Positions 56,330-64,000 of a DNA stretch of 64,000 bases are shown here, one piece after another. How positions within the stretch are numbered: position 1 is the stretch's first letter; the number at the start of each line of letters is the position of its first letter. The notes below the pieces were generated by a model, which made no database searches, was not told where the DNA came from, and saw only the letters and a list, made by a program, of their open reading frames with translations. The position numbers and the translations under genes are program-made. Origin of the DNA: Rhodobacter sp. (GTDB lineage Bacteria; Pseudomonadota; Alphaproteobacteria; Rhodobacterales; Rhodobacteraceae); contig JAIXXB010000041.1 in NCBI GenBank assembly GCA_027490955.1, positions 1 through 64,000 on the forward strand, given 5' to 3'.

Positions 56330-57010
56330 ATGCAAAAGGCGCAGAACCGAACCGACCGCCTGTTTGATCTGATCCAAACCCTGCGCGATGGGCGGTTGCA
56401 CCGCGCGGCGGATTTGGCGCAAAAACACGCCGTCACCGCGCGCACGATTTGGCGCGATATGGATGCGCTGCGCCAAACGGGGCTGGCGATAGAGGGCGAG
56501 CGCGGCGTGGGTTATATCCTGCGCATGCCGCTTGCGCTGCCGCAAATGATGTTGACCCCGTCAGAGATGGAGGCCCTGCGCGAGGGGCTGCGCGCCATTG
56601 CCGCAGGGGCAGATGCAACCCTTGCCAAGGGCGCGCGCAGTTTGGCCGCCAAAATCGCCGCCATCACCCCTGCCAGCGCCGATAAGGCCGATTTATTTGC
56701 CGCCAAACCGCCCCGCGCCGCGCGCACCCCTGCCTTTGTGCCTGCCCTGCGCCGCGCCATCCGCGCGCGCGCCCTTGTCAGCATCAGCCATATCGAGCCG
56801 ACCAATATCCTGTCGCACAGCGATATGCGCCCGCTGTTTTTAGATTTGAAATCCAGCATTTGGACATTGACCGCCTATTGCGAAACCGCGCAAGCCTTTC
56901 GGGTTTTGCGCCTAGACCGCATTCAATGGGTCACCCCCCTGCGCGAGGTATTCGCGCGCCAAGCAGGTCGCGAATTGGCCGATTTTCGCGCGCTGCAACA
57001 GGCGCCTTAG
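56330..57010 (+). CDS. YafY/WYL-family transcriptional regulator
   Basis: A 226-residue regulator. An N-terminal HTH (RLFDLIQTLRDGRLHRAADLAQKHAVTARTIWRDMDALRQ, about 10-50) is followed by a helical linker and a C-terminal WYL-type domain (ALVSISHIEPTNI to SSIWTLTAYCETAQAFRVLRLDRI). The WYL tripeptide itself is replaced by WTL. WYL domains bind small ligands or nucleic acids. AGGAG lies ahead of the ATG, and a perfect palindrome lies just upstream. It is monocistronic; its target beyond itself is not apparent. Confidence 0.85.
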   Translation: MQKAQNRTDRLFDLIQTLRDGRLHRAADLAQKHAVTARTIWRDMDALRQTGLAIEGERGVGYILRMPLALPQMMLTPSEMEALREGLRAIAAGADATLAKGARSLAAKIAAITPASADKADLFAAKPPRAARTPAFVPALRRAIRARALVSISHIEPTNILSHSDMRPLFLDLKSSIWTLTAYCETAQAFRVLRLDRIQWVTPLREVFARQAGRELADFRALQQAP

Positions 57011-57024
57011 GGCTTTTGGGCAAG

Positions 57025-58017
57025 TCAAAGGCGAATAGGACATTTGCTTTGCACCGACAGCATCGCCGCCTCGGCAATCTCGGATGCGCGCAGCCCATCG
57101 GTGGCATCAGGTGTCACAGGCCGCCCCGTGGCCACCGCCTCGGCAAAATCCATGATCTCGGCGCGGTAGGCTTCGGCATAGCGCTGGAAATAGCTGAAAT
57201 AGGGTTTTTCGCCCGTCACACCCTGATGAGTTGACAGCACAAGTTGCGATTGCGCCAGATTGCCCACGGCCGCCTGCCCCAAAGTGCCCAACACCTCTAG
57301 CCGCTGGTCATAGCCAAAGGCCGCGCGCAGCGAGTTCAGCACAGTCACATGGGTTCCGCGCGCCATGCGGATTGTGGTGGTGGTGGTGTCCACTTGGCCC
57401 ACAGTCAGATAATCGGGATTGATCAGCGCATCAGCCATCACATAAACCTCGGCCACCTCATCGTCTAAAAGCCAGCGGATCAGGTCATAATCATGCACCG
57501 CTGTTTCCTTGATCAGGCCAGAGGAATGGATAAACCCTTCCACAGGCGGCGCTTCGGCATCGCGCGAGATGATCAGCACCTGTTCGGGCGTGCCAATTTT
57601 GCCCGCGGCGATGGCCTGTTTCAGCGCGATGAAATGCGGATCAAAGCGGCGGTTGAACCCCATTTGCACAAAGCTTTCGCGCCCTTGCAGCGCGGCAAGG
57701 CAGGCGCGGGCGCGGCCGATGTCGTGATCGATGGGCTTTTCGCAAAAGATATGCGCCTGCGTTTGCGCCGCGCGTTGCAGGTAATCGGCATGGGTGCGCG
57801 GCGGGGTGGCGATGATATAGGCGGCAATGGAGGCATCCTCAAAGGCGCTGTCCATATCCACCACCCGCGCCCCCGTGGCCGCCGCCAGCGCGCCCGCGCG
57901 CTCGGCCGAAGGATCGACGATAAAGGCCAGTTCCATGCGCGCATCAGTTGCAAGGTTCATGGCATGGGTGCTGGCCATCTCGCCTGCTCCGAACAGGCAA
58001 ATGCGAAACTTTTTCAT
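57025..58017 (-). CDS. Gfo/Idh/MocA dehydrogenase, inositol 2-dehydrogenase-like
   Basis: A 330-residue NAD(P)-dependent enzyme: Rossmann start RICLFGAGEMASTHAMNL, catalytic lysine in CEKPID (about 96-101), MGFNRRFDP and VHDYDLIRWLL (about 173-183) with the His/Asp used by IolG-type enzymes. It probably oxidises a sugar or cyclitol hydroxyl to a ketone; myo-inositol is one option. It is the last gene of a three-gene minus-strand run; its ATG overlaps the stop of the NagB-fold gene by 4 bases. Confidence 0.88.
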   Translation of the reverse strand: MKKFRICLFGAGEMASTHAMNLATDARMELAFIVDPSAERAGALAAATGARVVDMDSAFEDASIAAYIIATPPRTHADYLQRAAQTQAHIFCEKPIDHDIGRARACLAALQGRESFVQMGFNRRFDPHFIALKQAIAAGKIGTPEQVLIISRDAEAPPVEGFIHSSGLIKETAVHDYDLIRWLLDDEVAEVYVMADALINPDYLTVGQVDTTTTTIRMARGTHVTVLNSLRAAFGYDQRLEVLGTLGQAAVGNLAQSQLVLSTHQGVTGEKPYFSYFQRYAEAYRAEIMDFAEAVATGRPVTPDATDGLRASEIAEAAMLSVQSKCPIRL

Positions 58018-58790
58018 GGCGTATCTCCTGCTGCGGCGCTGCGATCGGCGTAAAGGGTGGCATCGGCGCAGCAGGCCCAGACGCTGGCAGGCCAGTGCGG
58101 ATCATAGCCCGTGGCCTGCGCCAAACGGGTAAAAGCGCGGCGCTTGTCCGCCCCCCACAGCAGCATGGCCGAAGCCCGCGCTTGCGCGATGGTGGCAATG
58201 CCCACAGTCACGCCATGGCTGGGCACCTGATCTAGGCTGGTAAAATCGGGAAATGTCACCAGATTGTCGCGGCGCGTCTGGTCTGCCAGCGGCACGATGC
58301 GGGTGCGGCTGGCCATATCCGCGCCTTGCGGGTTAAAGGCGACATGGCCATCCCCTGCCCCACTGGCCAGCAAAAACAAATCAATCCCCCCTGCTGCGGC
58401 GATGCGCGCATCATAGGCGGCGGGGTTGGCAGGATCGGGCAGCCAGATATGGCCCTGATCAATGCAGTGAGGGGGGGCAAGCTCGGCGTTCAAGACGGCC
58501 AAAATTTCCTCGCGGGCAAAGCGGCGGCAGGAATAATGCGCGTTTTCAGGGACATGATCCATCGCGGGGGTCAGATAGTCATCCATCATCACGATAATCA
58601 GCTGCGACAAATCCAGCCTTTGCGCGCGGGCAAGGCGCGACAGCGCAGCATAGACAGGGCGCGGGCTGCGCCCACCGGGGCAGCCCAGCAAAAACGGGCC
58701 TGCGCGCGCCCTCAGACGCGCGGCAATATCCTGCGCCACCGCCAGACCAAGAGCATCGGCTGTCTCAAGGATCACCACGCGGCGGCTCAT
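58014..58790 (-). CDS. NagB/6-phosphogluconolactonase-fold protein with altered active site
   Basis: A 258-residue protein with LLGCPGGRSPRPVYAAL near residues 30-46, IIVMMDDYLTP (about 66-76, the DEY-like region) and SGAGDGHVAFNPQG (about 155-168). In glucosamine-6-phosphate deaminase the last motif reads DGHIAFNEP and its Glu is catalytic. Here Asp and His are kept but Pro stands at the Glu position. An isomerase, lactonase or deaminase acting on an unusual sugar is possible; the reaction cannot be named. It overlaps both neighbours by 4 bases. ATG at 58788-58790. Confidence 0.8.
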   Translation of the reverse strand: MSRRVVILETADALGLAVAQDIAARLRARAGPFLLGCPGGRSPRPVYAALSRLARAQRLDLSQLIIVMMDDYLTPAMDHVPENAHYSCRRFAREEILAVLNAELAPPHCIDQGHIWLPDPANPAAYDARIAAAGGIDLFLLASGAGDGHVAFNPQGADMASRTRIVPLADQTRRDNLVTFPDFTSLDQVPSHGVTVGIATIAQARASAMLLWGADKRRAFTRLAQATGYDPHWPASVWACCADATLYADRSAAAGDTP

Positions 58791-59671
58791 TGCAAGGCAT
58801 CCCTCAGAGCGTCTTGCAGAAAGTCCAAATTGCGGCGGGCCAAAGCCTCGGGTGTTTCGCTGGCCCCGATTGCGGGGTCTTGCTCGACGATCACCACGCC
58901 CGCGTAACCACGGCGGGTCAACAGCGCCAGAACCGCCTTGATATCCACCGCACCATCTGGCAGCGCGCACATCACCCCCTGATCAAAAGAGGCATTGATC
59001 CCCAGCGCCCCTGCCAGCACCCGCGCGCGCACCGCAGGATCGACATTTTTCAAATGCACAAAGCCGATCCTGTCCCAGACTTTGGCCATATAGCCCAGCA
59101 CATCCTGATCCCAAAATCCGTGGTGACCCGTATCAAAGCACAGGCTGACATCGGTTTCATCCAGCATCCTGTCAATCTGGGCCTCGCGCTCGATACAGGT
59201 GCCGACATGGGGGTGGATATGCAAGGTGATGCCATAATTCTCGCGCATCAACTGACCTGCCATTTGGATCATGCGGATGACGCCGCGCCATCCTGCCGCA
59301 TCCACCACACCTTGCGCATGGGGCGGATAATACTCGCTTTCATCCATCAAAATCAGATCGCGCGCGCCAAGGGCGGGCAGCAAACGGCCAAAGCGGTGTA
59401 GCGCCTCGATCAGCACAGGCGCGCTAGCAGGATCGGCCAGCGTGTGCACATGCGCAGCCCCTGCAAGGGTCAGATCGCGCTGGCGCAGCGCCGCGCCAAG
59501 GGCAATGGGATCTTGCCCCAAAAAGCCAAGCGGGCCAAGTTCCGTCACCCGATAACCCGCACGCGCCACAGCGTCCAAATAGGCCGCAGGGGTGATTGAA
59601 TTGCCTTCGGGGTAGAAAACCCCCCAAGAGCAGGGCGCGTTTCCAATTTTCAAGGCGCGCATTCCTTTCAT
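58787..59671 (-). CDS. IolE-like sugar isomerase/dehydratase (xylose isomerase-like TIM barrel)
   Basis: A 294-residue protein: KIGNAPCSWGVFYPEG at the start (NAPCSWGV is frequent in IolE-related proteins), TELGPLGFLG, LMDESEYYPP, LHIHPHVGTCIE, LCFDTGHHGFW and FVHLKNVDP with metal-binding Glu/His/Asp of the AP-endonuclease-2 fold. IolE dehydrates 2-keto-inositol; this relative may instead epimerise or isomerise a keto sugar. Start ATG at 59669-59671; another three codons in is possible. First gene of the minus-strand run, divergent from the LuxR-type regulator. Confidence 0.82.
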   Translation of the reverse strand: MKGMRALKIGNAPCSWGVFYPEGNSITPAAYLDAVARAGYRVTELGPLGFLGQDPIALGAALRQRDLTLAGAAHVHTLADPASAPVLIEALHRFGRLLPALGARDLILMDESEYYPPHAQGVVDAAGWRGVIRMIQMAGQLMRENYGITLHIHPHVGTCIEREAQIDRMLDETDVSLCFDTGHHGFWDQDVLGYMAKVWDRIGFVHLKNVDPAVRARVLAGALGINASFDQGVMCALPDGAVDIKAVLALLTRRGYAGVVIVEQDPAIGASETPEALARRNLDFLQDALRDALQ

Positions 59672-59706
59672 TGCATGGCATATATCTATGCAAAATAACG
59701 CTAGCA

Positions 59707-59736
59707 TGTGCCCAAAAGGGTGCAATTGTGCCCAAA
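59707..59736. promoter_or_regulatory. Paired TGTGCCCAAA motifs, candidate regulator sites
   Basis: TGTGCCCAAA occurs at 59707-59716 and 59727-59736, exactly 20 bases (two helical turns) apart, in the 116-base divergent spacer between the IolE-like gene and the LuxR-type regulator. The reverse complement TTTGGGCA resembles the repeats downstream of the regulator at 60834-60855. Confidence 0.45.
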
Positions 59737-59787
59737 GTCACGTTGCTTTTGCGGCCAAGCTGGGGCCAGTATGGCATAGGGGGGAAG

Positions 59788-60810
59788 ATGGGACAGCGCG
59801 ACACGCAATCGGAGATAGAGGTCGCGGCGCGGGCAGTCGACCATCTGGGAACACGCCGCTTTTATGATTCCCTCTTGGATCTTTTGGGCACAGCCGCACC
59901 GCATGATTTGGCCGCACTTGTGCGCTATTCCCGCGCAGCCCCGCCAGACCTGATTATCCCGCGCATCGAGCCGACCGAGGCGATTATGGCCTATTACAGC
60001 CATTACTACGCCTTTGACCCGTTTTATGCGCTGTGGAAAAACGGCGGCGAGACGGGGGTTTACCGCCTGCGCGCCATCGAGGCGGGGATTGGCCGTTCGG
60101 CCTATGCGCGCGAATTTCTGACGCAAATGCATATCCATGACGAAATCGCCGTGTTTTTGCCGCCCATTGGCGATGCTTCGCCCACGCTGATCCTTGATCG
60201 GGCCAAGGGCAATTTTCTGGCCAGCGAAGTGGCGCGCATTCGGCGTTTGTTTCCGCTGCTGGCCTCTTTGCACAGCCGCCATCTTGCCACCATCGCCACC
60301 ACGGGGATGGACAGTGAAAACTCTCCCATCGGGCCAGAACGGCCGCTGCGCTTTGTCGATCAGCACGGGCGGCAGATTTTTGCCACCGCCGCTTGGGCCG
60401 AGCAGGCCGCCGACCCCGACATCGCCCAAGCCTTGCAGATTGTCGTCGCGCGCGGGCCTTGCACAGTGCATCTCAAAGGGCAGATGGCGCTGCGCCGCAC
60501 CCAATTACCACCCGATTTTGGCCCCGCGCCCAGCGGCTATTGCGACGAAATCTCGCCCGACAGGCAGGCAGGGGCCGCCGCGCCCACCACAGATGATTTG
60601 CCCGCCCGCCTTGCAGACCAGCTGAGCGAGCGCGAACGCACAGTGGTCTTGCTGACATTGCAAGGCCATCCCGTCATCGAAATCGCCCGCCGCATGGGCC
60701 TGTCGCGCGGCACAGTCAAGAACTATCGCCTGACAATCTATCGCAAATTAGACATCACCACCGAACGCGAATTGTTTTTGGAATTCATGGCCGCCCAGCG
60801 CGGCGCCTGA
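59788..60810 (+). CDS. LuxR-type transcriptional regulator
   Basis: A 340-residue regulator. The C-terminal LuxR/GerE HTH is clear: QLSERERTVVLLTLQGHPVIEIARRMGLSRGTVKNYRLTIYRKLDI (about 278-325). The N-terminal ~190 residues (FYDSLLDLLGTAAPHDLAALVRYSRAAPPDL, then AYYSHYYAFDPFYALW) look like a GAF-type ligand domain rather than an acyl-homoserine-lactone or receiver domain. A small sugar-derived ligand is an inference from context. A GGGGGGAAG ribosome site selects the ATG at 59788; the earlier frame is antisense to the IolE-like gene. Confidence 0.82.
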   Translation: MGQRDTQSEIEVAARAVDHLGTRRFYDSLLDLLGTAAPHDLAALVRYSRAAPPDLIIPRIEPTEAIMAYYSHYYAFDPFYALWKNGGETGVYRLRAIEAGIGRSAYAREFLTQMHIHDEIAVFLPPIGDASPTLILDRAKGNFLASEVARIRRLFPLLASLHSRHLATIATTGMDSENSPIGPERPLRFVDQHGRQIFATAAWAEQAADPDIAQALQIVVARGPCTVHLKGQMALRRTQLPPDFGPAPSGYCDEISPDRQAGAAAPTTDDLPARLADQLSERERTVVLLTLQGHPVIEIARRMGLSRGTVKNYRLTIYRKLDITTERELFLEFMAAQRGA

Positions 60811-60833
60811 ACTTTGCCCGCGTAGCGGAGCCT

Positions 60834-60855
60834 CTTTGGGGCATCTTTGGGGCAT
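60834..60855. repeat. Two abutting 11-bp repeats CTTTGGGGCAT
   Basis: Identical copies at 60834-60844 and 60845-60855, in the 163-base spacer between the regulator and the second dehydrogenase gene. Related GGGGCAT sequences recur at about 60870 and 60921. They resemble the reversed motif at 59707-59736. Confidence 0.8.
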
Positions 60856-60931
60856 GTGCGGGCCCTATGCGGGGCATGACCAAAAGCACTATTTGCCAAA
60901 CAAGAAAGCCGCCGCATGATGGGGCATATCG

Positions 60932-60950
60932 TGGCCCAAGCTTGGGGCCA
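60932..60950. promoter_or_regulatory. Near-perfect dyad upstream of the second dehydrogenase gene
   Basis: TGGCCCAAGCTTGGGGCCA, a dyad centred on AAGCTT, ends 23 bases before the ATG at 60974. Its arms contain the CTTGGGGC element seen in the tandem repeats. It could be an operator. As RNA it could also form a hairpin, but no U-tract follows. Confidence 0.45.
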
Positions 60951-60973
60951 TAGGGTGCAAATAGGGGGCTGTG

Positions 60974-62068
60974 ATGGGCAAATCAGTGCGGGTCGGCGTG
61001 ATCGGCCTTGGGTCAGTCTCGGAAAAATATGTCCCCCATGTGCGCAGATTGGCACTCGAGGGTATGGCCTGCGAAATTGTCATCGCCTGTGATCTGCGCG
61101 CGGGCAAGGCCGAGCAGGCCCGCGCATGGGGCATTCCTGCCTTTACCACCGATTATACCGAAGTTTTGGCGCGCCCTGACGTAGATGTGGTGCTGATCTT
61201 GACCTCGATGCAAAGCCACGGGCAATTGACGCGCGATGCGCTGAATGCGGGCAAACATGTGCTGGTGGAAAAGCCGATGTCGATGGATTTGGCCGAGGCG
61301 GCCGAATTGGTCGCCCTATCCAAACAGTCAAAAGGCCATTTGGTCTGCGCGCCCCATGTGACCTTGTCGCAGACATATCAGGACATGTGGCGGCATATCC
61401 ATCAGGGCGATATCGGCAGGCCGCTGACGGCGCGCGGATTTTACGGCTGGGCGGGGCCAGATTGGGACCCGTTCTTTTACGAACCCGGCGGCGGGCCAAT
61501 GTATGACCTTGGGGTCTATAATGTAACCACGCTGACGGGCCTGCTTGGCCCGTGCAAGCGGGTGATGGCAATGACGGGCATCGCCATTCCCGAACGCATT
61601 GTGAACAATAAGAAAATGGCCGTGCAGACCGATGACAATTTTCAATTACTGATGGATTTTGGCAATCAGTGCTTTGCCGTGGTGACGACGGGCTTTACCA
61701 TTCAGCAATATGATGTGCCGGGGATCGAGATTTACGGCACCGAAGGGTCGATCACCATGAAGGCCGAGGATTGGGATCCGCGCGGCTATCGGCTGTGGCG
61801 CAACCAAGATGGGTTCTGGCAAGATCATGACCAGCGCAACCGCTGGCCTTGGACAGATGGGGTGCGCGATTTGATTGGTGCTGTGCAAGAGGGGCGCAAA
61901 CCTGTGAACGCGCCAGAACATGCCTATCACGTGCTGGAAGTCATGGTGAAATCTATGGAAAGCGGGCGCACAGGGCAGGCTTTGCCCATTGTCAGCAGCT
62001 TTACCCCGCCGCGGTTTGATCGCACGCGCGACCGGATCGCCCCCCATCTTGACCACGCGCCGGAGTGA
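60974..62068 (+). CDS. Gfo/Idh/MocA-family dehydrogenase
   Basis: A 364-residue enzyme: Rossmann VRVGVIGLGSVSEKYVPHV, catalytic lysine in VEKPMSMDLAEAAEL (about 99-113), and the C-terminal half with FYEPGGGPMYDLGVYNVTTLTGLLGP. It is longer than, and not closely similar to, the one at 57025. The substrate is probably a sugar, sugar acid or keto sugar. GGGGG lies 6 bases ahead of the ATG; a GTG directly before it is in frame. First gene of a plus-strand run with the bicupin (3 bases downstream) and the ROK kinase. Confidence 0.87.
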   Translation: MGKSVRVGVIGLGSVSEKYVPHVRRLALEGMACEIVIACDLRAGKAEQARAWGIPAFTTDYTEVLARPDVDVVLILTSMQSHGQLTRDALNAGKHVLVEKPMSMDLAEAAELVALSKQSKGHLVCAPHVTLSQTYQDMWRHIHQGDIGRPLTARGFYGWAGPDWDPFFYEPGGGPMYDLGVYNVTTLTGLLGPCKRVMAMTGIAIPERIVNNKKMAVQTDDNFQLLMDFGNQCFAVVTTGFTIQQYDVPGIEIYGTEGSITMKAEDWDPRGYRLWRNQDGFWQDHDQRNRWPWTDGVRDLIGAVQEGRKPVNAPEHAYHVLEVMVKSMESGRTGQALPIVSSFTPPRFDRTRDRIAPHLDHAPE

Positions 62069-62071
62069 GCC

Positions 62072-62935
62072 ATGGCCTATAAATCCTCGCCCCGCCCTGT
62101 GTTTGATGGCCCCACCCCCATTCCCTATGCCAAGGTGACGCGGCATCTTTGGGGCGATGACGCCGCAGGGCGGATTGATGATTGGATTTATGTCTCGACC
62201 GACAAAATCCACCAATTGGTGTTTGGAATGCCTCCGGGGCAAGGGTTTCGCCATTCGGAAAGTTTTCGCACTGTCTTTGGCGCGGATGAGGTGCTGACAG
62301 TGCTGATGGGCACGATGATTATCGCCAATCCTGAAACGGGCGAAGTTCATCTGGTTCATACGGGGGAATCGGCCTTTTTCCAAAAGGATACATGGCATCA
62401 CGCCTTTGCATGGGGCGATGCGGAATGTCGGGTGCTGGAATTTTTCGCGCCGCCCCCTTCGACGGGATCTTCGGGCAAATATGCCGCCACCCGCCCCTAT
62501 GTGGCGGATTTCAAATATGAACGCAGCGCCCTGATCGGCCAATGGCCTGCCGCGCGCAAAACCGCCGTGGCGCAGGCAAAAATCACTGTGATCCGGCAAG
62601 CAGATTGGCTGTGGTCGATGGATGCGGGCGATCCACGGGTGCTGACGGGTATTTCCGCCTCGACCGATCAATTGACGGCGGGAACCTGCCGCATTGCCGC
62701 AGGCGGGCGCAGCGATGTGCGGGTGCATGGCGGGGCGATGGGCCTGTATGTGACCAAAGGGCGGGTCAATATCTTGCTGGAAGATGCCGAAACCGCGCCT
62801 GTATGGTTTGAATTGCAGCCGCAAGATGGCTTTTATATGCCGCCCAACGCGCGATACCGCGTGTTCAACATGGGCGGCGAGATGGCCGAATATCTGTTCG
62901 GCGTGGCCCCGCATTATCACGCGGAGGGGGCATGA
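62072..62935 (+). CDS. Bicupin protein of a sugar cluster
   Basis: A 287-residue protein with two cupin-like barrels: residues about 40-130 (PPGQGFRHSESFRTVFGADEVLTVLMGTM then FFQKDTWHHAFAWGD) and about 165-280 (TCRIAAGGRSDVRVHGGAMGLYVTKGRVNI then DGFYMPPNARYRVFN). The first barrel keeps His/Glu metal ligands; the second has fewer. It is not IolB by sequence. It may isomerise a sugar or sense one. The start follows the dehydrogenase by 3 bases, and its stop overlaps the kinase start (ATGA). Confidence 0.78.
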   Translation: MAYKSSPRPVFDGPTPIPYAKVTRHLWGDDAAGRIDDWIYVSTDKIHQLVFGMPPGQGFRHSESFRTVFGADEVLTVLMGTMIIANPETGEVHLVHTGESAFFQKDTWHHAFAWGDAECRVLEFFAPPPSTGSSGKYAATRPYVADFKYERSALIGQWPAARKTAVAQAKITVIRQADWLWSMDAGDPRVLTGISASTDQLTAGTCRIAAGGRSDVRVHGGAMGLYVTKGRVNILLEDAETAPVWFELQPQDGFYMPPNARYRVFNMGGEMAEYLFGVAPHYHAEGA

Positions 62936-63915
62936 GCGCCACGCCCTCCCCCCTTATGGCCCAAAGCTCTCACGCAGGCGCGGGGCGGGGCGATGGCGGC
63001 TTTGCCATCGGGATTGATGTGGGCGGCACAAAGGTTGCAGGCGGGATTGTCGATCTGCACACAGGCCGCATCCATGCCAGACGCCAAGTGCCAACCGATT
63101 TTGAACGCGGCGGCGCGGCCATTTTGGCCGATACTGTGGCCCTTGCGCGCGAGATAAAGGCCGAGGCGCAGCGTTTGGGCATTGCGGTGCCAAGCATGGG
63201 CGTGGGCGTGGCCGAATTGGTCGATGGCGCGGGGCGCGTCTTTTCCGACCACCGCATCCGCTGGACAGGGCTTGACGCCGCGCGCAGCCTGTCATCGGTT
63301 TTGCCCACTGTGATATCGTCCGATGTGCGCGCCGCAGCCTTGGCCGAGGCGCGACTGGGCGCAGGGCGTGGGGCGCGGGATTTTTATTTTGTCACCATCG
63401 GCACGGGGGTGGCGGGGGTTTTGGTGCTTGGCGGGGTGCCCTATGCAGGGTCGCGCGGCGCAGCATTGGTGATTGCCAATTCGATGGAACGCCACCGCTG
63501 CAGCGCCTGTGGGCATGAACACCGCCAGATGATCGAAGATGTGGCATCAGGCCCTGCGCTGGCGGCGGCCTATGGGGCAAAATCGGCCGAAGACGTGCTG
63601 GCGGCGGCGCGCGCAGGCGATGGGCGCGCCTTGGCGGTGATCGAGCATGCGACGGCCCAATTGGGGCGCGTTCTGGCGCTGTTGGCCGATAGTTTGGATC
63701 CCAGCACCATGGTGATTGGCGGCGGCTTGGGCTGCGCCGCAGGGCCATATTTCGATGCGCTATGCGCGCATGTGCGCGCAGGGCTGTGGGATGGGGTGCC
63801 CAACCCAATGACGATGACGCAGGCAGTCATGGGGCCAGATGCTGGGCTGATTGGCGCAGCATTGGCCGCAGAATTTACACCACAAGCGGCCAAAGAGCCG
63901 CATCTTTGCAACTGA
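62932..63915 (+). CDS. ROK-family sugar kinase with atypical zinc motif
   Basis: A 327-residue protein: phosphate-binding GIDVGGTKVAGGIVD (about 24-38), catalytic Asp in VISSDVRAAALAEARLGAGRG, TIGTGVAGVLVLGG, and HRCSACGHEHRQMIED. ROK kinases usually carry CxCGxxGCxE for structural zinc; here the spacing is CxxCG and the third cysteine is missing. It probably phosphorylates the imported sugar or an intermediate. The first ~20 residues are extra; a start further in is possible. It is coupled to the bicupin gene by ATGA. Confidence 0.85.
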   Translation: MSATPSPLMAQSSHAGAGRGDGGFAIGIDVGGTKVAGGIVDLHTGRIHARRQVPTDFERGGAAILADTVALAREIKAEAQRLGIAVPSMGVGVAELVDGAGRVFSDHRIRWTGLDAARSLSSVLPTVISSDVRAAALAEARLGAGRGARDFYFVTIGTGVAGVLVLGGVPYAGSRGAALVIANSMERHRCSACGHEHRQMIEDVASGPALAAAYGAKSAEDVLAAARAGDGRALAVIEHATAQLGRVLALLADSLDPSTMVIGGGLGCAAGPYFDALCAHVRAGLWDGVPNPMTMTQAVMGPDAGLIGAALAAEFTPQAAKEPHLCN

Positions 63916-63932
63916 ACATAGGGAGAGAAAAC

Positions 63933-64000
63933 ATGTCAAACACCAGTTTTGCTGTACCTCGTCACATCAGTCGGCGCGGTTTCTTGGCCAGCAGCGCCGC
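63933..64000 (+). CDS. Tat-exported protein, probably sugar ABC substrate-binding protein (partial)
   Basis: The first 22 complete codons read MSNTSFAVPRHISRRGFLASSA, a twin-arginine signal (SRRGFL). GGGAGAG lies 6 bases ahead. The gene runs off the window. In sugar clusters such as this one, the gene after a ROK kinase is often a solute-binding protein of an ABC importer, but the visible part proves only Tat export. Confidence 0.6.
   Translation, partial: MSNTSFAVPRHISRRGFLASSA

Follow-up and report, generated by a model that had tools for sequence, protein, structure and literature searches.

A putative carbohydrate-breakdown gene cluster of Rhodobacter sp. built around a NagB-like protein of a distinct clade

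The first 64,000 nucleotides of contig JAIXXB010000041.1 of Rhodobacter sp. (assembly GCA_027490955.1), hereafter the window, end in a divergent gene cluster. An earlier note, made from the letters of the sequence, had described it as a sugar or cyclitol utilization cluster without iolB, iolC or iolD and had named eight genes. It was found by Pfam and NCBIfam scans that all eight are in place. The contig, 117188 bases long, continues past the window edge and holds importer genes there, and the whole cluster has 11 genes with this part included. It appears to join known folds in a combination for which no assignment was found in the families and literature searched, with a clade of NagB-like proteins (NagBL) at its centre. 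The features are listed below, the two divergent sides being called modules A and B.

57025-58017, minus strand: IdhA, an IolG-like Gfo/Idh oxidoreductase, module A (Pfam PF01408 and PF22725)
58014-58790, minus strand: NagBL, a NagB-fold protein, module A (Pfam PF01182)
58787-59662, minus strand: IolEL, an IolE-like TIM barrel, module A (Pfam PF01261)
59704-59718, plus strand: candidate operator GCATGN1-3CCAAAAG in the intergenic gap from which IolEL and LuxR diverge (pattern match)
59788-60810, plus strand: LuxR-type (GerE) regulator, module B (Pfam PF00196)
60874-60896, plus strand: candidate operator, a 23-base block 5′ of IdhB (identity across three genomes)
60974-62068, plus strand: IdhB, a second Gfo/Idh oxidoreductase, module B (Pfam PF01408 and PF22725)
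62072-62935, plus strand: bicupin, module B (two Cupin_2 stretches, Pfam)
62932-63915, plus strand: ROK-family kinase, module B (Pfam PF00480)
63933-65309, plus strand: solute-binding protein, with 63933-64000 inside the window and the rest beyond its edge (contig reading)
65309-66256 and 66253-67104, beyond the window on the same contig: ABC permeases
67117-68184, beyond the window on the same contig: MalK-type ATPase

None of the 11 reading frames has an internal stop, and the neighbouring genes of module A (IolEL, NagBL and IdhA) overlap by four bases at each junction. The same gene layout was found in two metagenome-assembled genomes, of Pseudorhodobacter (L021) and Rhodobacter (L022, whose contig stops inside the IdhA gene), with protein identities of 79-95% (93-95% for the binding protein and the permeases). 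The dN/dS values against L021 range from 0.03 to 0.21, with 0.086 for the LuxR gene. All 11 cluster genes are under purifying selection, and the gene arrangement is not due to chance. The rightward extension proposed in the earlier note brought out what is predicted to be a complete CUT1-like carbohydrate ABC importer, a call based on gene order, on the relatives of the binding protein and on the annotation of relatives as carbohydrate ABC permeases. The binding protein matches 4r9f (78.5 bits), and its start contains a twin-arginine stretch, RRGFL, as read by eye.

Is NagBL an ordinary glucosamine-6-phosphate deaminase? In a public record, NagBL and its ROK partner are named 6-phosphogluconolactonase and ROK family protein. 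NagBL scored 113.5 bits with the NagB model TIGR00502, whose cut-off is 236.9, and stayed below every NagB cut-off listed. In the tree, 27 NagBLs split from 10 ordinary NagBs with branch support of 100/100, and a set of 14 versus 10 rows also gave this split. E148 is an active-site residue of NagB, and H143 and D72 have roles in the enzyme as well. In the column of Escherichia coli E148, the 27 NagBLs have P (21), G (3), Q (2) or A (1), whereas E is present in 10/10 ordinary NagBs. On the other hand, H143 is retained in all 27 NagBLs and D72 in 26 of the 26 readable rows; the D72 column is unreadable for L069, whose match is in two pieces and whose annotation in the record is short. NagBL therefore resembles glucosamine-6-phosphate deaminase NagB in the fold and in the H143 and D72 positions, but differs from it in forming its own clade, in the loss of E148 and in a score under the cut-off. 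A plain glucosamine-6-phosphate deaminase was made less likely by the missed TIGR00502 cut-off and the loss of E148 in 27/27. Since a residue kept in all ten aligned ordinary NagBs is lost, deamination by NagBL is not to be assumed. The earlier note had thought of a route through a keto sugar or an amino-cyclitol; a keto sugar is part of the reading favoured here too, while the amino-cyclitol, or any nitrogen in the substrate, gained no direct support.

The ROK protein scored 124.6 bits with PF00480, above the cut-off of 22.9. In the sample used, one clade (11 rows, support 100/99) unites the ROKs found alongside NagBL or the bicupin. GExGH is the name of a conserved stretch in ROK hexokinases (GEWGH in Mak, GEFGH in NagK, GHIGH in NanK), and this stretch is replaced in all 11 cluster ROKs inspected, which come from loci other than those of Actinomycetota. 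Where the three E. coli kinases have an ND pair, 10 of the 11 have SD and L044 has AD.

These features bear on amino-sugar catabolism, in which the ROK kinase would phosphorylate an amino hexose, and NagBL would deaminate and isomerise the product to fructose 6-phosphate. Preparing or releasing the amino sugar would fall to the Gfo/Idh enzymes, IolEL and the bicupin. The NagB fold with its retained H143 and D72 is in line with such a pathway. So is the company of a ROK at 16 of 27 NagBL loci, as tallied with tblastn (1e-8) up to 10 kb on each side and less at contig ends. The BadF-type kinase of the NagBL locus L024 matches an N-acetylglucosamine kinase model, far under its cut-off (59 of 370 bits). 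Nevertheless, amino-sugar catabolism seems unlikely in view of the lost E148, the unreached NagB cut-offs and the replaced GExGH stretch, and no NagA-like deacetylase was seen among the cluster genes scanned.

The cluster resembles myo-inositol catabolism in that an IolG-like gene adjoins an IolE-like gene and that a bicupin and a kinase are present. It differs in that IdhA and IolEL stay under the equivalog cut-offs and in that iolD, iolB and iolC are all missing among the cluster genes, importer genes included, as the earlier note had stated for its eight genes. IdhA is near the line for the IolG equivalog TIGR04380 (323.2 bits against 355), and IolEL scored 122.5 bits against 290 for the IolE equivalog TIGR04379. 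The two IolEs of the same genome scored 359 and 383 bits and are 27% and 22% identical to IolEL. The iolC, iolD, iolE and iolB genes are grouped on contig C21, away from the window cluster, and IolD passes its cut-off twice in this genome, only on contigs C21 and C1. Because of the sub-cut-off scores and the iol genes on C21, the window cluster is not the myo-inositol operon of the genome. The standard inositol operon was thus rejected, as the earlier note had held. In the D-xxx-HD motif of IdhA, E replaces the D of two IolG-type relatives (L045 and L048), in all three orthologs.

The same genome has a second IolE-like gene (L042, contig C15, 8317-11650), which is flanked by two Gfo/Idh genes and lies near a PfkB kinase gene. 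Its product is 39% identical to IolEL and scored 173 of 290 bits for IolE. Triads of this build, with an IolE-like gene between Gfo/Idh genes, were also found in L045-L048.

A looser relation to inositol has to be considered, that is, an inositol-like route for a cyclitol or an amino-cyclitol such as rhizopine. IdhA would produce an inosose, IolEL would dehydrate it, and the bicupin and the ROK protein would act as an IolB-like isomerase and an IolC-like kinase; NagBL would then open or deaminate the product, or the product would drain into the iol genes present elsewhere in the genome. It is known that IolB is likewise a bicupin and that rhizopine (moc) catabolism also involves Gfo/Idh, IolE-like and binding-protein genes. 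The near-cut-off score of IdhA fits such a route. The predicted structure of IolEL (pLDDT 87.8) has IolE as its best PDB match (TM 0.85), followed by sugar 3-epimerases. IolD passes its cut-off in 10 of the 11 other carrier genomes searched versus 72 of 149 genomes of the family, which is only suggestive, since the carriers include several close relatives and the comparison set is a single family. However, the cluster has no IolD-like ring-opening gene, the identity of IolEL to the IolEs of its own genome is low, and seven NagBL loci carry a GH4 glycosidase in place of the Gfo/Idh, IolEL, bicupin and ROK genes. I regard the inositol-like route as rather doubtful.

In module B, IdhB scored only 90.6 bits with TIGR04380 (cut-off 355), and its best solved relative is a scyllo-inositol dehydrogenase with L-glucose dehydrogenase activity (90 bits). 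No NCBIfam family matched the bicupin and no solved relative of it was found; its structure prediction, with a pLDDT of 42 only, was too poor for a structural search.

How widely are the two modules distributed? A NagB-fold match at 1e-20 was found in 9 of 295 genomes of the family, at 13 places; two of these are NagBLs (the window genome and G178) and nine are ordinary NagBs, while L016 (with an internal stop) and L017 were left out. Of the places put on the tree from these 295 genomes, only those of the window genome and G178 fall in the NagBL clade. Bicupin matches came from 3 of the 295 family genomes and from 2 of 376 genomes of the class; the latter two are the window genome and one whose 31% relative adjoins a family-5 binding protein. 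In G178, module A (with IdhA) is accompanied by a separate importer, a ROK kinase and a ROK-repressor-like protein, whereas two genomes (G242 and G034) carry module B.

Eleven plasmid records with NagBL were found, of which four were used (L068, L069, L070 and L072). A merged plasmid operon was revealed in Shinella, 'Roseateles' XES5 and Ensifer canadensis. It brings genes of both modules together, with a binding protein, IolEL, NagBL, ROK, an ATPase, two permeases, one Gfo/Idh enzyme and the bicupin, and also with a TetR gene in two annotated records. Among cultured bacteria, Shinella sp. HZN7 and Ensifer adhaerens have this merged operon. The 'Roseateles' cluster (L069, NZ_CP084754.1, UNVERIFIED_ORG) is almost identical to that of Shinella, and the species label may be wrong.

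Outside the Alphaproteobacteria, NagBL was found at 1e-40 in 13 of 296 Actinomycetota genomes. Two of the Actinomycetota loci (L091 and L094) have genes for Gfo/Idh, IolEL, NagBL, a binding protein, permeases, MalK, IdhB (48%), the bicupin, ROK and a GntR regulator. Two others (L099 and L100), in the small Actinomycetota genomes G817 and G847 of 1.4-1.5 Mb, have a distant IolE-like gene (26%), NagBL, ROK and an IolG-like gene. Modules A and B are thus joined in three different arrangements: in the window cluster, in the Rhizobiaceae operons and in L091 and L094. Because their genes are intermixed in the latter two, the two divergent modules probably form one unit.

The upstream regions also bear on this point. 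A block of 23 bases, GCATGACCAAAAGCACTATTTGC, lies 5′ of IdhB and is the same in the window, L021 and L022. Its first 13 bases fit the pattern GCATGN1-3CCAAAAG, which occurs a second time in the gap that separates the IolEL gene from the divergent LuxR gene. The two sites in the window compare with 0.19 expected, and two or more were seen in 2 of 100 shuffles, for a pattern picked after inspection. The pattern was not seen by eye upstream in L043 and L044, where LuxR shows 68% and 63% identity. Scanning the upstream regions for palindromes turned up nothing recognisable in all relatives, the promoter scan stayed at about the shuffle level, and the terminator scan stayed below it. Since the pattern was chosen post hoc and was not seen in L043 and L044, co-regulation of the two divergent units is weakly suggested.

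Alternatively, the modules could be two independent operons that stand side by side and act on different compounds. In favour of this, module A of G178 has an importer and a ROK kinase to itself, and module B occurs without module A in G242 and G034. In contrast, the genes of both modules are mixed, in differing orders, in the Shinella, 'Roseateles' XES5 and Ensifer operons and in L091 and L094. Moreover, IolEL and the bicupin co-occur at 8 of the 27 loci with NagBL (Fisher p 0.003, with relatedness ignored), and a similar sequence element lies ahead of both units. Two independent operons are, in sum, improbable.

At 56330-57010 of the window lies the gene of a regulator that combines an HTH_11 and a WYL domain; only 14 bases separate its end from the 3′ end of IdhA. 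The Ensifer bicupin has a neighbour with 33% identity to this regulator. A link of the regulator to the cluster is possible.

In the tally of the 27 NagBL loci, a GH4 glycosidase gene was found at seven, never together with Gfo/Idh (13 loci; Fisher p 0.006), IolEL (11; 0.022), the bicupin (10; 0.026) or ROK (16; 0.0004), all p values ignoring relatedness. A BadF-type kinase is present at five loci, all with GH4 and none with ROK (p 0.006, likewise). At four loci (L025, L028, L072 and L096), both GH4 and ROK are missing. Pfam-typed proteins of L024, L026 and L027 served as GH4 and BadF queries, and these three rows match by construction; L080 and L027, which are one genome, were counted as one. 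Absences are weaker where contigs end near NagBL (L022, L028, L090 and L093) and on the left side of the window, which was limited to 2 kb. These Actinomycetota loci with GH4 and a BadF-type kinase share the NagBL clade with the window cluster, and four of the seven have CUT1-like permeases nearby. Unlike the window cluster, they lack Gfo/Idh, IolEL, bicupin and ROK genes over the stretches that were searched.

As described in PMC10628242, GH4 enzymes carry out oxidation, beta-elimination, addition of water and reduction on 6-phospho-hexopyranosyl substrates in one protein. In other bacteria the same four steps are divided among separate dehydrogenases and TIM barrels, according to PMC10628242 and PMC10066097. 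Because GH4, which does all four steps alone, alternates with the Gfo/Idh, IolEL and ROK set, I favour, tentatively and at somewhat less than even chances, the reading that the cluster is one catabolic unit for the oxidative cleavage of a glycoside-like substrate, combined with phosphorylation and NagB-like isomerisation. Possible substrates include disaccharides, anhydrosugars, and sugars linked to a cyclitol or polyol. The ABC system would import it, and one Gfo/Idh enzyme would oxidise a hydroxyl, probably at C3 of the sugar. IolEL, aided by the bicupin where present, would break the bond by elimination and hydration or isomerisation, and the other Gfo/Idh enzyme, where two exist, would undo the oxidation by reducing the keto sugar. 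Phosphorylation by the altered ROK kinase would come before or after the cleavage, NagBL would convert the sugar phosphate to a ketose phosphate, and the LuxR protein would control both divergent units. By analogy, the GH4 loci suggest that phosphorylation may precede cleavage.

Known oxidative systems show a partial likeness. The levoglucosan genes LgdA-LgdB1-LgdB2-LgdC and the Agrobacterium tumefaciens set GlycDH/AtOGE/AtHYD/Gfo likewise have Gfo/Idh enzymes, PF01261 TIM barrels and an ABC importer (PMC10628242 and PMC10066097). Cleavage of the AtOGE/Lgd kind calls for the genes of a Gfo/Idh or GMC dehydrogenase, a PF01261 TIM barrel and an importer, and the window cluster has such a set. 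Compared by gene families, those operons have two TIM barrels versus one here, and the bicupin, the ROK protein and the NagB-fold enzyme are extra here. The LgdA model NF052479 (650 bits) gave 71.2 bits for IdhA and 66.5 bits for IdhB, so the strict levoglucosan pathway was rejected. The oxidative route is further supported by L099, where a GMC oxidoreductase gene stands beside the IolE-like, NagBL, ROK and IolG-like genes. The CUT1-like type of the importer, the merged Rhizobiaceae operons and the joined gene sets of L091 and L094 also speak for the favoured reading.

Several observations weigh against oxidative cleavage by one unit. The predicted IolEL structure is nearest to IolE rather than to a known eliminase or hydratase, an order that would rather favour the inositol-like route. 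Module A occurs in G178, where no bicupin was found at 1e-20, and in G242 and G034, with module B, neither NagBL (at 1e-20) nor IolEL (over the 20 kb read) was found. The merged operon of Rhizobiaceae has one Gfo/Idh enzyme, not two, and it is close to neither IdhA nor IdhB. Among the NagBL loci, four (L023, L029, L097 and L101) have ROK without Gfo/Idh or IolEL, and L025 has no Gfo/Idh, IolEL, GH4 or ROK in view. GH4 was found at NagBL loci only in Actinomycetota. The GH4 label changes four times on the NagBL tree, and the exclusivity was not significant once relatedness was counted (one independent pair on well-supported branches). Since the NagBL-ROK pair is also found where the oxidative genes are missing, it may serve more than one route.

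A bolder variant of the oxidative reading is that the altered ROK kinase and NagBL, which lacks E148, act directly on a keto sugar: the 3-keto sugar released in the oxidation and elimination steps would be phosphorylated and isomerised with no prior reduction to a normal hexose. It is quite improbable, but if true, it would be a new entry into central metabolism in at least two phyla.

Taken as a whole, the results point to a carbohydrate-breakdown route common to some Alphaproteobacteria and Actinomycetota. The earlier note would have been undone by an orthologous cluster with a known substrate; none turned up in the literature search, whose reach left out most subscription journals. The analysis sets NagBL apart as a clade of its own, together with a linked clade of ROKs. 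The alternation of GH4 with the Gfo/Idh, IolE-like and ROK set also offers a concrete idea of the chemistry, which could be checked by a few enzyme assays.

Two other gene sets show related proteins in different company. On a Sinorhizobium mexicanum plasmid (L071, 9019-13472), an IolEL gene (55%) lies with Gfo/Idh, CehA/McbA metallohydrolase and importer genes and without NagBL, possibly representing a related route with an ester as its starting compound. In Labrenzia sp. DG1229 (L029, 8289-11691), NagBL and ROK adjoin other oxidative partners, an SDR dehydrogenase and an SMP-30 lactonase.

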